Shown here piece by piece: positions 3,544 through 25,280 of a stretch of 64,000 bases of DNA. Source of the stretch: an uncultured Burkholderiales bacterium (GTDB lineage: Bacteria; Pseudomonadota; Gammaproteobacteria; Burkholderiales; Burkholderiaceae_C). The translations under genes were made by a program, and so were the position numbers. A model generated the notes under the pieces. It made no database searches. It was not told where the DNA came from and was given only the letters and a program-made list of their open reading frames with translations. Position 1 is the first letter of the stretch, and every line of letters begins with the position of its first letter. The stretch spans positions 1 through 64,000 of the forward strand of contig CAITYM010000130.1 of assembly GCA_903896615.1 (NCBI GenBank), read 5' to 3'.

Positions 3544-4452
3544 CTAGTTATTAGCAATCAAGGAAAGAGCCAGATTTACAGCTTCCTTGGCATCCACACA
3601 TATGGCAGAGGCGCCAAAATCACTGGCGTCGTGATTTTCAATTGTGAAGATAGGTCCCCCTAATAATATTGCAACACGTGGATTTCGCGATGATTTTCTA
3701 ATCTCAGAAACCAACGGGGCTAGCTCAGTGAGCTGTGCTTGAATACTTACTGATAGGCCCACAGCATCAAACCATTCGTTACGAACTGCCTGAACAAGCC
3801 CATTAATTGTGGGCGAAATCTCCAGAACTACCTGCCATCCCTCTTTGCGAAAAAATTCAGACACAATTGACGGGCCTAACAAATGCTCAGAACCTGGGGC
3901 AGCAGCAATCATAATTCTTCTTACCTCCCCTTGAATCAGAGGACCATCAATGTAGGAAAACCCAATACCACGAGTTACCGAATGCATTCGCACAAGACCA
4001 TGAGTGACTAGATAAAAATCTAGATTGTTTGTCATCCATTGATCACCTAGGTAACGTGCTGCAGGGGTGATTAGATCTAAGAATATATTTTCTTTTGTTA
4101 AACCTTCATTTAAGTAACGCTCGATAAGTTGTAACGGTGCATCGTGGTTATCTGATGTGCACATTAACGCAAACTGCTGAATCTCAAGCTCAGTTGGCAA
4201 GGCACGTTGAGGGTCCAAATTTTGAATTTCGATTGGACTCATGTTTTGGGCGCCCAAGAGTCTTGGAATGATGTCCTCCTCAATAATGGACATAAGAGAG
4301 GAATTACATTCCACAGTGCTATCTCTAAAAATCTTTTGAGACCTATCACTAGAAGTTGTAGCTTTCTTGGAGAACATAGACATTGCCATGTTTGCAAAAT
4401 TACTAATTGATCTTATGGGGAGCGAAATATTTCCGGGCACATAGATGTTCAT
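3544..4452 (-). CDS. Cobalamin-binding regulator, AerR/PpaA-like (paralog 1, upstream of puc)
   Basis: B12-binding-domain-like C-terminus AAAPGSEHLLGPSIVSEFFRKEGWQV...VGLSVSIQAQ...ILLGGPIF; adjacent to puc genes. Confidence 0.8.
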   Translation of the reverse strand: MNIYVPGNISLPIRSISNFANMAMSMFSKKATTSSDRSQKIFRDSTVECNSSLMSIIEEDIIPRLLGAQNMSPIEIQNLDPQRALPTELEIQQFALMCTSDNHDAPLQLIERYLNEGLTKENIFLDLITPAARYLGDQWMTNNLDFYLVTHGLVRMHSVTRGIGFSYIDGPLIQGEVRRIMIAAAPGSEHLLGPSIVSEFFRKEGWQVVLEISPTINGLVQAVRNEWFDAVGLSVSIQAQLTELAPLVSEIRKSSRNPRVAILLGGPIFTIENHDASDFGASAICVDAKEAVNLALSLIANN

Positions 4453-5076: not shown

Positions 5077-5094
5077 TGTAAATATAAGTTGACT
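5077..5094. promoter_or_regulatory. PpsR/CrtJ-like site upstream of puc (TGT-N12-ACT)
   Basis: TGTAAATATAAGTTGACT, 8 bp before another TGT-N12-ACA site. Confidence 0.55.
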
Positions 5095-5102
5095 TTTATA
5101 AA

Positions 5103-5120
5103 TGTCTAACTTAAATTACA
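5103..5120. promoter_or_regulatory. PpsR/CrtJ site upstream of puc (TGT-N12-ACA)
   Basis: TGTCTAACTTAAATTACA. Confidence 0.6.
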
Positions 5121-5218: not shown

Positions 5219-5368
5219 ATGAGTGACCATAAAGTTTGGCCCACAGGTTTGACCGAGGCTGAGTCAGAGGAGCTACATCGACACATCGTCCAAGGAACAC
5301 AATTCTTTGGAATGATTGCTGCCTTCGCTCATCTTTTGGCTTATATCTATTCGCCCTGGCTTAAATAA
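5219..5368 (+). CDS. pucB: LH2 antenna beta subunit
   Basis: MSDHKVWPTGLTEAESEELHRHIVQGTQFFGMIAAFAHLLAYIYSPWLK (49 aa), AHxLAYxYxPWL motif; SD GGAG upstream; too short for the ORF track. Confidence 0.95.
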   Translation: MSDHKVWPTGLTEAESEELHRHIVQGTQFFGMIAAFAHLLAYIYSPWLK

Positions 5369-5382
5369 AAGAGGTACAGCAA

Positions 5383-5568
5383 ATGATTTACGGAAAAATG
5401 TGGTTAGTGGTAAAGCCCTCCGTGGGTGTTCCACTTATTATTGCAGCAGTAGCAGTTGCATCGTTTTCGGTGCATTTAGCTATTTTAAATAACACAACAT
5501 GGGTCAAAGCATTTCTGAACGGAAACGCCGACAAAGTTGCTGTTACAGCTCCAGCGGCCTCCAAATAG
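5383..5568 (+). CDS. pucA: LH2 antenna alpha subunit
   Basis: MIYGKMWLVVKPSVGVPLIIAAVAVASFSVHLAILNNTTWVKAFLNG...; ungapped alignment to LH2 alpha, His31 ligand. Confidence 0.95.
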   Translation: MIYGKMWLVVKPSVGVPLIIAAVAVASFSVHLAILNNTTWVKAFLNGNADKVAVTAPAASK

Positions 5569-5580
5569 CTACTGGATAAG

Positions 5581-5620
5581 GCACATGAATCAGTCGTTTT
5601 GTTTGATTCATGTGCTTTTT
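5581..5620 (+). terminator. Intrinsic terminator / attenuator between pucA and pucC
   Basis: gcacatgaatca-N-tgattcatgtgc perfect 12-bp inverted repeat followed by TTTTT. Confidence 0.85.
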
Positions 5621-5640: not shown

Positions 5641-7092
5641 ATGACTAATGGCCTTCAACTTAACCGGACAGAAAACTCTACTCCAGTGGAAAAGTCATCC
5701 ATTAGCAAGAAAATAATTTATTCGTTTCTTCAGCGTGGTACCAAGTTTTTACCCTTTGCGGATGCGGCCTCCGTTAATCTCCCCCTATCTAGACTTTTAA
5801 GACTCTCTTTATTTCAAGTATCAGTTGGTATGGCCTTAGCTCTACTTATTGGTACTCTTAACCGGGTGATGATCGTTGAACTTCATGTTCCAGCATCATG
5901 GGTTTCAGTGATGGTCGCAATGCCCATCGTAGTTGCACCATTTAGGGCAATTATTGGCTTTAGCTCTGATGTCCATCAATCTCAACTGGGATGGAAACGT
6001 GTCCCCTTCATATGGAGAGGCACGATGGTGCAATTTGGTGGATTGGCGATAATGCCCTTTGCTCTGCTTGTTTTATCTGGCATGGGCCAAGCCTCCAGGG
6101 CCCCAGAATGGGTTGGCCATTTGGGCGCAGGCGTAGCATTTTTGTTGGTCGGCGCAGGACTTCACACAACACAAACAGCTGGCCTCGCCTTAGCAACTGA
6201 TCTAGCGCCCGAGGAATCCAGGCCCAAGGTGGTTGGACTCATGTACGTCATGCTACTAATTGGAATGATGTTAAGCGCACTGGTTTTTGGAATGATTTTG
6301 AAGGACTTCACGCCGGGTCGCCTGATTCAAGTCATTCAAGCTTCAGCACTTCTCACAATCGTATTAAATGTCATCGCACTTTGGAAGCAGGAAAGTAGAG
6401 TAAAAAAACCTTCATATCTCAAGCAGAAAACAGAGACCTTTAAGGAGTCTTGGATAAGGTTTTGTTACGGAGACCAAGCCCTGAGAAGGCTAATAGCGGT
6501 TGGACTCGGTACTATTGCATTCAGTATGGAGGACATCCTTTTAGAACCCTATGGGGGTGAGGTGCTTCATCTGAGTGTGGGTGCGACCACTGCACTTACA
6601 GCAACACTTGCATTGGGAGGATTAGTTGGATTTGCGTTAGCATCCAATATCTTAAGCAAAGGTTTTGACCCTTTTAAGATGGCAAGCATCGGCGCACTAT
6701 TCGGAATTCCTGCCTTCCTATGCGTCATCATATCTGCACCACTTGAATCGAGTTTGATATTTGCGTTTGGCATCTTCTCAATTGGTTTTGGTGGAGGCCT
6801 CTTTGGACACGGCACGCTCACTGCAACAATGAATCTAGCGCCGCCCGGTCAAAGTGGTCTTGCACTAGGGGCGTGGGGGGCTGTGCAAGCAACTGCTGCA
6901 GGAATCGCAATCGCAGTAAGCGGAATTATCAGAGACGTAATAGATTCAATCTATCAGGCGCCATTGGGTTACAACTGCGTTTACGCTTTAGAGATTGTGA
7001 TGCTTTTTGCAACCATAATTACAATGGCACCTCTTGTGCTGAAAATGCCAAGAGCACAATCAAACAATCAAATTCCTAAAGATTTAGGATAA
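5641..7092 (+). CDS. pucC: PucC, LH2 assembly protein (BCD-family MFS transporter)
   Basis: PFADAASVNLPLSRLLRLSLFQVSVGMALALLIGTLNRVMIVEL; downstream of pucBA. Confidence 0.93.
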   Translation: MTNGLQLNRTENSTPVEKSSISKKIIYSFLQRGTKFLPFADAASVNLPLSRLLRLSLFQVSVGMALALLIGTLNRVMIVELHVPASWVSVMVAMPIVVAPFRAIIGFSSDVHQSQLGWKRVPFIWRGTMVQFGGLAIMPFALLVLSGMGQASRAPEWVGHLGAGVAFLLVGAGLHTTQTAGLALATDLAPEESRPKVVGLMYVMLLIGMMLSALVFGMILKDFTPGRLIQVIQASALLTIVLNVIALWKQESRVKKPSYLKQKTETFKESWIRFCYGDQALRRLIAVGLGTIAFSMEDILLEPYGGEVLHLSVGATTALTATLALGGLVGFALASNILSKGFDPFKMASIGALFGIPAFLCVIISAPLESSLIFAFGIFSIGFGGGLFGHGTLTATMNLAPPGQSGLALGAWGAVQATAAGIAIAVSGIIRDVIDSIYQAPLGYNCVYALEIVMLFATIITMAPLVLKMPRAQSNNQIPKDLG

Positions 7093-22568: not shown

Positions 22569-23990
22569 CTATGGATTGTCGTTTGTGTCGGCTAATCCGT
22601 AGCGATGCAACTTCACATAAAGACTTTGTCTGGACAGGCCTAACATTTCAGCCGCTGAAGCTCTATTATTTTGAGTCAGTTCTAGTGCGGATTGGATACA
22701 CATTTTCTCAATCATATCGGACGTTTCTCCAACAATGTCTTTCATCGGCATACGCCCTACCAACTGAGCCAATTGGGAAACGGATCCAGCCATATTGCTA
22801 GAAGCAACGGGGCCTGTTTGAGACAGTAGGTGCACATCTCGGATGAAAAAAGCATATCGTTTTTCGTCTGTCGATAAGGTTGTTGCGCTAATCTCAACTT
22901 CAATGGTCGTATTGGATTGCCCCAAGAGCTCTGTGGCAAAGTTTCTAAGCGATGAGAGTTGTTTTAAATTGTTACTCAAGACGCCCCAATCAACACCTCC
23001 TCTTGCAAGCCAAGACTCAAAGGGCTTGCCCAGAACTTGTGCCAAGGAAAATGACCCCGTCAAGGCCATAAATTCTTCGTTTGCACTCAAAACAATTCCG
23101 CCAGCGTCAGTGACTAGGAATCCGTAAGGCGCAGTTTGTAAGGCGTCGGTGTACCACTCCTGGGTCAATTTATTTAAATTGGCCCCTTGCGACACTGACT
23201 TTACACCCAAGCGAATCATCAACTGTGGGCCACCTTCTTGAACAATCAAAGACGGCATGATTGTGAAGTCTTGTTCAGCGGAGGCGCTCTTGGCTCTAAT
23301 TGATTTTGTTTTACCTGCGCTTTGCGCAGATCGAATCAATTCATCAATTTCGTCGCTATTGTCTGCGGAAAAGTACTGAGCAAACTCAGTTCCATTAATT
23401 TTCTTTGGATCACTCATCATGAGCGCTTTTGCGGCAGCAGAGTTGGCTTGTGTAATTTTTTTTGTCGCTAAATCAACAATTAAAATTGGCTCGCTTGAAT
23501 TTTCAAAAAGCGTGTTGTAGCGAGATTCCAAATGTCTAAGGCGCAAATAATCACGCTCCATTGAGCGGTGCGTATCCATCAATTTTTGCTGCATCTTGGC
23601 CATAGAGCCCAAATCTCTGGCAGCCAAGATCAAATCATTTTGTCCAGGGAATTTGAAAATTTTGACCAACAAAGGAGTAGGAGCTTTGGTTGGTGAAAAG
23701 AAGTTAATGTGCTTCCAGTCCCCTTCCAAATCAGAGAGCTCGCAATTCTCTAAATCAATGGTTGCCTTTAAAACGCTGGCGAATTTGTTGGTTGAGTCAA
23801 GTTCTACAAAATCAGTGAATTTTTGCCCGACCCATGCGTCAAGTTTGAGACGTGCGAGTTCAACACCCTTAGTCTTTACGGAAATTATTTGAGTTGTTTT
23901 CTGTTGAAAAACCACAATCAAATCCGCCAAGCCAAATATGAGTGCTTCGGAGAGATTTAATTTATCTGAAAGGGGGAGGGATTTGGTCAA
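22569..23990 (-). CDS. ppsR: PpsR/CrtJ transcriptional repressor (PAS domains + Fis-type HTH)
   Basis: PAS-like repeats and C-term ENMCIQSALELTQNNRASAAEMLGLSRQSLYVKLHRYGL (read as EKMCIQSALELTQNNRASAAEMLGLSRQSLYVKLHRYGL). Confidence 0.94.
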   Translation of the reverse strand: MTKSLPLSDKLNLSEALIFGLADLIVVFQQKTTQIISVKTKGVELARLKLDAWVGQKFTDFVELDSTNKFASVLKATIDLENCELSDLEGDWKHINFFSPTKAPTPLLVKIFKFPGQNDLILAARDLGSMAKMQQKLMDTHRSMERDYLRLRHLESRYNTLFENSSEPILIVDLATKKITQANSAAAKALMMSDPKKINGTEFAQYFSADNSDEIDELIRSAQSAGKTKSIRAKSASAEQDFTIMPSLIVQEGGPQLMIRLGVKSVSQGANLNKLTQEWYTDALQTAPYGFLVTDAGGIVLSANEEFMALTGSFSLAQVLGKPFESWLARGGVDWGVLSNNLKQLSSLRNFATELLGQSNTTIEVEISATTLSTDEKRYAFFIRDVHLLSQTGPVASSNMAGSVSQLAQLVGRMPMKDIVGETSDMIEKMCIQSALELTQNNRASAAEMLGLSRQSLYVKLHRYGLADTNDNP

Positions 23991-24203: not shown

Positions 24204-25280
24204 TTATAATGCCAATACCCTACTTTTTGAGGATTTGGGACTTTGGAAATGTGCGCCAGCGGAATCGCCGTCATTAGACGCCCTTTGACGCTGCGCCTTA
24301 GCGCCTGGCGCACGCTTGGTTGAACTGGCACGCTTTAAATTCGCTCGAGAGCCAAACTCACTCTCTGCGCTTTGTTCGGTACTATAGGAGGTGGTATTGG
24401 CCAACTCAAAGGCGTTTAGCTGATTGATTTTCCTGGCCTTTCTGTTTATGGATACCAATTTCATACCCAGAGTATGAACGTCTCTGACATTTTTACAAAT
24501 CAAATCAGCCCCCAATTCCTCAATTAGCTCAGGGTGTAGGGCGATCAAAGGGCCCCCCACTAAAAATTGAATAGCTGAGTTTTTGGATTTGGATTTGACC
24601 TTGGCAATCCAAGACTTGAGTGTCGGGACTTGAGAGGATAACGAAATGCTCACACAAAAAAGATCAACCCAGTTTTTCGCAACCAACTCAAGAATTACCT
24701 TTTCTTGGTGATCGAATCCAGGAAGCACGCTCCAACCTTTTCGCTGCAGATACTGCGAGACGATCAAGGGCCCCAAAGTGTGCTGCGAGCCGGCGGCACT
24801 CGTCACTAGCGCTTGAAAACGGTTACTGCCCGGCACAATACTTGATTCACTGGGCTTTATGAAATCTGGGCTCAACGCAAAAATTAAGCGCTTGATATTC
24901 CAAGTCGCTGTGGTGACCTCTACAAAGGAGATCTGATCGCCCTCCCACCAATCATGCAAAAGGCGGATTGAGGGCGGGATGATATCCAAATACAAAACCT
25001 CAATATCCAGGCCTTGAGCAAACAAGTTGCGAGCGAAGGAAGCCACTTCCTCAGAGCTCAACTCAAGGCAAGCCCTGCAACAAGACTCTGCGTAAGCGGC
25101 CAACTCCTGAGCAGATAAAAGGCCGTCCTGAGGGTGTTTACAGCGGGAAGTCATTGTGGATGCACTGGCGTCATCCACTAATGAATCGCGCTCGCTCAGA
25201 CCACCACGTCCCCGAACCAAATCAGGAATGATCTCACTAGCAAGGGTTGTCACGATAGGCAACAAATGCTCAAAACTCAA
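24204..25280 (-). CDS. Cobalamin-binding regulator AerR/PpaA (paralog 2, next to ppsR)
   Basis: TSAAGSQHTLGPLIVSQYLQRKGWSVLPGFD...FCVSISLSSQ...FLVGGPLIALHPELIEELGAD. Confidence 0.87.
   Translation of the reverse strand: MSFEHLLPIVTTLASEIIPDLVRGRGGLSERDSLVDDASASTMTSRCKHPQDGLLSAQELAAYAESCCRACLELSSEEVASFARNLFAQGLDIEVLYLDIIPPSIRLLHDWWEGDQISFVEVTTATWNIKRLIFALSPDFIKPSESSIVPGSNRFQALVTSAAGSQHTLGPLIVSQYLQRKGWSVLPGFDHQEKVILELVAKNWVDLFCVSISLSSQVPTLKSWIAKVKSKSKNSAIQFLVGGPLIALHPELIEELGADLICKNVRDVHTLGMKLVSINRKARKINQLNAFELANTTSYSTEQSAESEFGSRANLKRASSTKRAPGAKAQRQRASNDGDSAGAHFQSPKSSKSRVLAL

Follow-up and report, generated by a model that had tools for sequence, protein, structure and literature searches.

The puc locus

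The stretch of DNA analysed (64,000 nucleotides, hereafter the window) carries its puc genes within a photosynthesis gene cluster, in the order pucB-pucA-hairpin-pucC (Table 1). The pucA open reading frame (186 bp) encodes a 61-residue LH2 alpha subunit, whose translation is MIYGKMWLVVKPSVGVPLIIAAVAVASFSVHLAILNNTTWVKAFLNGNADKVAVTAPAASK. A profile search assigned PucA to the LHC family with PF00556, at 38.5 bits where the cut-off is 23. The gene is genuine, with pucB directly 5' and pucC 3' of it and a protein that is conserved in congeners, being 89-98% identical in the ten nearest of them (tblastn). PucA and PucB both resemble LH2 chains more than LH1 chains, since the best PDB matches of both are LH2 proteins, which in the case of PucB are the LH2 beta chains of Rps. 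palustris. The PF00556 domain in alpha and beta, alpha His31, beta His38 and the adjoining PUCC gene are those of an LH2. The hairpin that follows pucA is likely the 3' end of the pucBA mRNA or a stabiliser of it.

Table 1. Coordinates of the puc genes, the key codons and the putative regulatory elements in the window
Feature	Position	Strand	Evidence or remarks
PpsR/CrtJ-like half of a putative tandem operator, TGTAAATATAAGTTGACT (TGT-N12-ACW)	5077..5094	+	Position and sequence conserved 5' of pucB in 8 congeneric genomes
Second PpsR/CrtJ-like site, TGTCTAACTTAAATTACA (TGT-N12-ACA)	5103..5120	+	Pattern match; conserved 5' of pucB in 8 genomes
pucB, LH2 beta	5219..5368	+	PF00556, 36.3 bits; central His38, His20 near B800, Gln28 (-10)
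pucA, LH2 alpha	5383..5568	+	S27, H31, V41, F44, L45; gapless alignment and PF00556
alpha-Ser27 codon TCG	5461..5463	+	Gapless alignment to 7PBW
alpha-Val41 codon GTC	5503..5505	+	Alignment; Tyr in strain 7050 LH3, Val in PucD (PMC6988754)
alpha-Phe44 and Leu45 codons TTT CTG	5512..5517	+	Phe44 = 5512-5514, Leu45 = 5515-5517
RNA hairpin, 16-bp, then T-run, between pucA and pucC	5578..5618	+	MFE -20.7 kcal/mol, z = -3.8
pucC, LH2 assembly factor	5641..7092	+	PUCC, 503.9 bits
ppsR/crtJ, repressor expected to control puc	22569..23990	-	TIGR02040 PpsR-CrtJ, 356.7 bits, cut-off 275.4

Regarding the databases, NCBIfam NF040862 labels PucB as 'LH1 beta' (67.1 bits versus a curated cut-off of 61) despite its pucA and pucC neighbours, so automatic annotation may mislabel such genes. 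PDB entry 9LT4 ("B-800/814 alpha") ranked low compared with other PDB matches for several queries.

In the assembly (173 contigs, 99.86% complete, 4.2% contamination), an HMM search returned four LHC genes, all of them on the contig of the window. Two are pucB and pucA, and the other two are puf genes located at 47.3-47.8 kb. tblastn with PucA gave one copy as well, and no second pucBA was found in the assembly. Hence, pucBA is the only peripheral antenna of the cell. The first-pass annotation had described it as the only LH2 in the window, which holds for the whole assembly, and the second pucA of the YW type that it considered elsewhere in the genome was found there by neither method.

Residues of PucA related to spectral tuning

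PucA aligned without gaps, over residues 1-48 in the Rbl. acidophilus numbering, to the solved LH2 alphas 1KZU, 1IJD, 7ZE3 and 7PBW, which places His31, Trp40, Phe44 and Leu45. The gapless alignment and the Phe44-Leu45 pair noticed in the first pass are thereby confirmed, and their interpretation is partly supported. In the structure alignment, positions 27/41/44/45 read S/V/F/L for the window. The reference proteins have A/F/Y/W (Rbl. acidophilus 10050, 850 nm), A/Y/F/L (strain 7050, 820 nm), V/V/F/M (Rps. palustris PucD, 803 nm) and S/L/Y/Y (Rba. sphaeroides, 850 nm). On this alignment, the set S27-V41-F44-L45 differs from LH3 and LH4 by keeping Ser27.

A comparison of nine LH2 structures related two C3-acetyl H-bonds to absorption at ~850 nm, one to ~825 nm and none to ~803 nm (Qian et al. 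2022, PMC9618040). In the 820-nm complex of strain 7050 (LH3), alpha Tyr41 is the one acetyl H-bond donor (PMC9618040, PMC6988754), and the complex stays at 820 nm because this residue compensates for the bonds that the alpha-side pigment has lost, while PucD, which presents Val41, lacks the acetyl bond (PMC6988754, PMC9897067). The window has the Phe44-Leu45 of the strain 7050 type, but with Val41 instead of Tyr41, so that the "B800-820 (LH3) signature" proposed earlier is short of one part. Moreover, according to a 2025 review, the single-band LH4 found in Roseobacter-type aerobic phototrophs has F44-L45 as its motif (PMC12654162), and the pair alone cannot tell LH3 from LH4. The PucD type of LH4 is defined by the lack of a donor at alpha 41, 44 and 45, as in the window (V41, F44, L45). 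The pucA of Roseobacter litoralis, whose 806-nm spectrum is known, was not found when the plasmid collection was searched by tblastn with PucA queries.

Concerning Ser27, this residue H-bonds the C13-keto group of beta-B850 in Rba. sphaeroides (7PBW; PMC8775250), where the F44-L45 double mutant, which keeps Ser27 and has Leu41, shows its band at 826 nm (PMC8775250). The Ser27-to-Ala change by itself has no effect in this species.

Position -10 of PucB

In Rba. sphaeroides, Arg at beta -10 H-bonds the B800 acetyl group and drives the carotenoid electrochromic band shift (PMC8775250). This usual B800-binding Arg is replaced in the window by Gln28 (codon 5300-5302), as it is in all 54 F44-L45 relatives with a readable PucB, and Gln is also found in most YY/YW relatives (within L034-L116). 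Its presence in both groups points to a B800-site trait that belongs to the lineage and does not depend on the switch at 44/45. The beta Arg is typical of the known LH2 structures, not strictly defining, and Gln is no bar to LH2. This Gln, Val41 and Ser27 had all been overlooked in the first pass.

Regulation of the puc genes

The first of the two PpsR/CrtJ-like sites is an imperfect palindrome, so its role as an operator is tentative. The bare TGT-N12-ACA pattern occurs in the window at chance frequency (17 seen versus 17.2 expected), and it is the conservation upstream of pucB that argues for such sites. These conserved sites, together with a ppsR gene in the cluster, indicate regulated expression. 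The antenna had been called constitutive, which fits the choice of spectral form but not the expression: oxygen or light probably represses puc, and the spectral form is what stays fixed. Proteins with B12-binding or corrinoid-type domains are encoded beside puc (3544-4452, minus strand) and beside ppsR (24204-25280, minus strand), possibly two AerR/PpaA-type light or redox antirepressors.

Distribution and switching at residue 44

LHC genes are present in 56 of the 84 genomes of the genus; the other 28, several of them complete, carry none, so phototrophy is patchy in this genus. Among its 49 PucA copies, which include the window's own copy twice, 46 present S27-V41-F44-L45 (SVFL), two S-V-Y-L and one S-I-Y-L. 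Judged by these residues, the blue-shift trait is common to nearly all phototrophs of the genus and is not unusual. Tyr44-Leu45 occurs in three members (L051, L133 and L138), natural partial reversions which should be red-shifted. One congener (genome G011) carries two pucBA loci, L046 and L141, both with F44-L45. Of the 33 named relatives, 30 carry SVFL; MAGs under the names Limnohabitans, Polynucleobacter, Rubrivivax, Ramlibacter and Hylemonella are among them. SLYY, AMYW, SIFF and SVFL are all present in other genera of the family. In one relative, from a MAG titled Bordetella parapertussis, pucA (L092:2056-2250) has an in-frame stop at codon 7; this is probably a mislabelled bin, or the stop a sequencing error.

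On a tree of the neighbouring PucC from related Burkholderiales (70 sequences), position 44 changes between Phe and Tyr at least seven times, an estimate, since the tree is a quick one with many open forks; if only its strongly supported branches are counted, the SVFL label still has to change at least three times. The window falls within a fully supported clade of 11, all SVFL. Two sister sequences, L048 and L051, differ at residue 44 (Phe versus Tyr). Furthermore, L107 (SLYY) and L108 (SIFF) have an identical PucB and sister PucC sequences. The pucA of L108 is 97-85% identical per 100-bp block to that of L106 and 76-70% to that of L107, while its pucC is nearer L107. These three mosaic loci, all in one genus, suggest that pucA may be exchanged by recombination.

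Predicted absorption of the complex

Alpha residues 44 and 45 are unable to H-bond the B850 acetyl groups and there is only one pucBA, so a blue shift is expected. Combining Val41 (PucD, 803 nm) with Ser27 and F44-L45 (the 826-nm mutant) places the band somewhere from 803 to 826 nm. The loss of Tyr41 alone was also considered as proof of an 803-nm band and was rejected, since Tyr41 is likewise absent from the Rba. sphaeroides mutant, which has its band at 826 nm. We consider it probable that the LH2 of the window is blue-shifted, with its lower band near 813 nm (805-826 nm) and no acetyl H-bond from alpha 41, 44 or 45. The direction of the shift proposed in the first pass therefore stands, given the non-donors and the single pucBA, but the nearest measured relative, Limnohabitans planktonicus, lies at 813 and not at 820 nm: its LH2 peaks at 799/813 nm, with puc genes within the photosynthesis cluster, in the values of Kasalicky et al. 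2018 as quoted in PMC12654162. As three of the 49 genus PucA copies carry Tyr44, this quoted 813-nm band may stem from another residue set.

The pucBA product would form a ring-shaped LH2, presumably a nonamer, in which neither C3-acetyl group of the B850-type bacteriochlorophyll pair would be H-bonded by alpha Val41, Phe44 or Leu45. The unbonded acetyls could rotate freely, which would raise the site energies and move the lower exciton band from ~850 to ~813 nm (805-826 nm), beside B800. The retained Ser27 probably still H-bonds the C13-keto of beta-B850 and may prevent the band from shifting as far as in LH4 (803 nm). Energy would pass from LH2 to LH1 as usual.

A true LH3 as in strain 7050, keeping one acetyl H-bond and absorbing at 818-826 nm, would agree with the F44-L45 shared with 1IJD, with the 826-nm mutant and with Rfx. 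antarcticus, whose F44-F45 antenna absorbs at 819 nm (PMC5374385). However, the single donor Tyr41 is Val in the window and in nearly all relatives, and the nearest measured genus, Limnohabitans, is at 813 nm in the quoted values, which makes this rather unlikely. Somewhat less likely still is an LH4-like complex in which the two pigment rings share a single band near 800-806 nm: PucD, also the best-scoring PDB alpha, shares V41 and F44, and F44-L45 is cited for the Roseobacter LH4 (PMC12654162), but PucD has Val27 and Met45 where the window keeps Ser27, and two separate peaks are resolved in the spectrum quoted for L. planktonicus.

Instead of separate LH2 rings, the antenna could form a second ring around RC-LH1 as in Gemmatimonas, which PMC12654162 suggested for Limnohabitans because the peaks are similar (813-819 nm). 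It is improbable here, since PucA matches LH2 alphas at an E-value of 1e-14 and the LHC chain of 7O0U at only 0.31, and pucC and a standard pucBA layout are present. It is very unlikely that other donors, for instance beta Trp (+9) or beta tyrosines, bring back ordinary B800-850 absorption. A beta-Trp does H-bond an acetyl group in Phs. molischianum (PMC9618040) and PucB ends in YIYSPWLK, yet the LH2 betas of Rps. palustris also end in AYVYSPWL and PucD absorbs at 803 nm. The blue-shifted LH2 near 813 nm is thus the preferred reading.

Significance

A blue-shifted sole antenna is already known in freshwater betaproteobacteria, from Rfx. antarcticus (819 nm) and, in the quoted values, L. planktonicus (799/813 nm). 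These data add the Val41/Ser27 context, the lineage-wide spread, the repeated switching of residue 44 and, for the question of Ser27, a background that occurs in nature. How the Ser27-C13-keto bond affects tuning once both acetyl donors are gone is open, and a triple mutant has been suggested (Qian et al. 2022, PMC9618040); the lineage of the window offers this background, with Ser27 and without acetyl donors. The pairs L048/L051, which differ at residue 44, and L107/L108, with the same PucB and a YY or FF alpha, make the question testable. Concerning ecology, most phototrophs of this abundant lake genus appear fixed on light of ~813 and not 850 nm.

More tentatively, the freshwater Burkholderiales LH2 could be a third natural tuning class, with Ser27 and no donors at 41/44/45. 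Its band would be held at ~813 nm, between LH4 (803 nm) and LH3 (820-826 nm), by the Ser27-C13-keto bond. The lineage would repeatedly switch form by point changes at residue 44 and by swaps of pucA among relatives, leaving PucB untouched. We regard this wider proposal as possible but doubtful.

Comparison with known systems

The closest likeness is to L. planktonicus, as described in the quoted account: a freshwater betaproteobacterial aerobic phototroph with puc in the photosynthesis cluster and a blue-shifted LH2, which in the window is predicted. A MAG named Limnohabitans sp. Rim8 (L089) carries the same S27-V41-F44-L45, and Limnohabitans is presumably the genus name that applies to the window.

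The LH3 of Rbl. acidophilus 7050 (1IJD) shares alpha Phe44-Leu45 and 24 of 48 residues with the window, but has Tyr41 and Ala27 instead of Val41 and Ser27, and is a low-light alternative rather than the sole antenna. The PucD-LH2/LH4 of Rps. palustris (B800-803, 7ZE3), the top PDB alpha match with 25 of 48 residues identical, resembles it in Val41, Phe44 and a non-donor at 45; it differs in Met45 (Leu45 in the window), in Val27 (Ser27) and in belonging to a multigene puc family, of which the window has none. The Rba. sphaeroides F44-L45 mutant (B800-826) has Ser27, F44 and L45 and lacks Tyr41, as in the window, but it carries Leu41 instead of Val41 and Arg instead of Gln at beta -10, and is engineered whereas the window is natural. 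Finally, the LH3-only antenna of Rfx. antarcticus is likewise encoded by a single puc operon in the photosynthesis cluster and exists in the blue-shifted form only, although it has F45 where the window has L45 and belongs to an anaerobic-capable purple bacterium.
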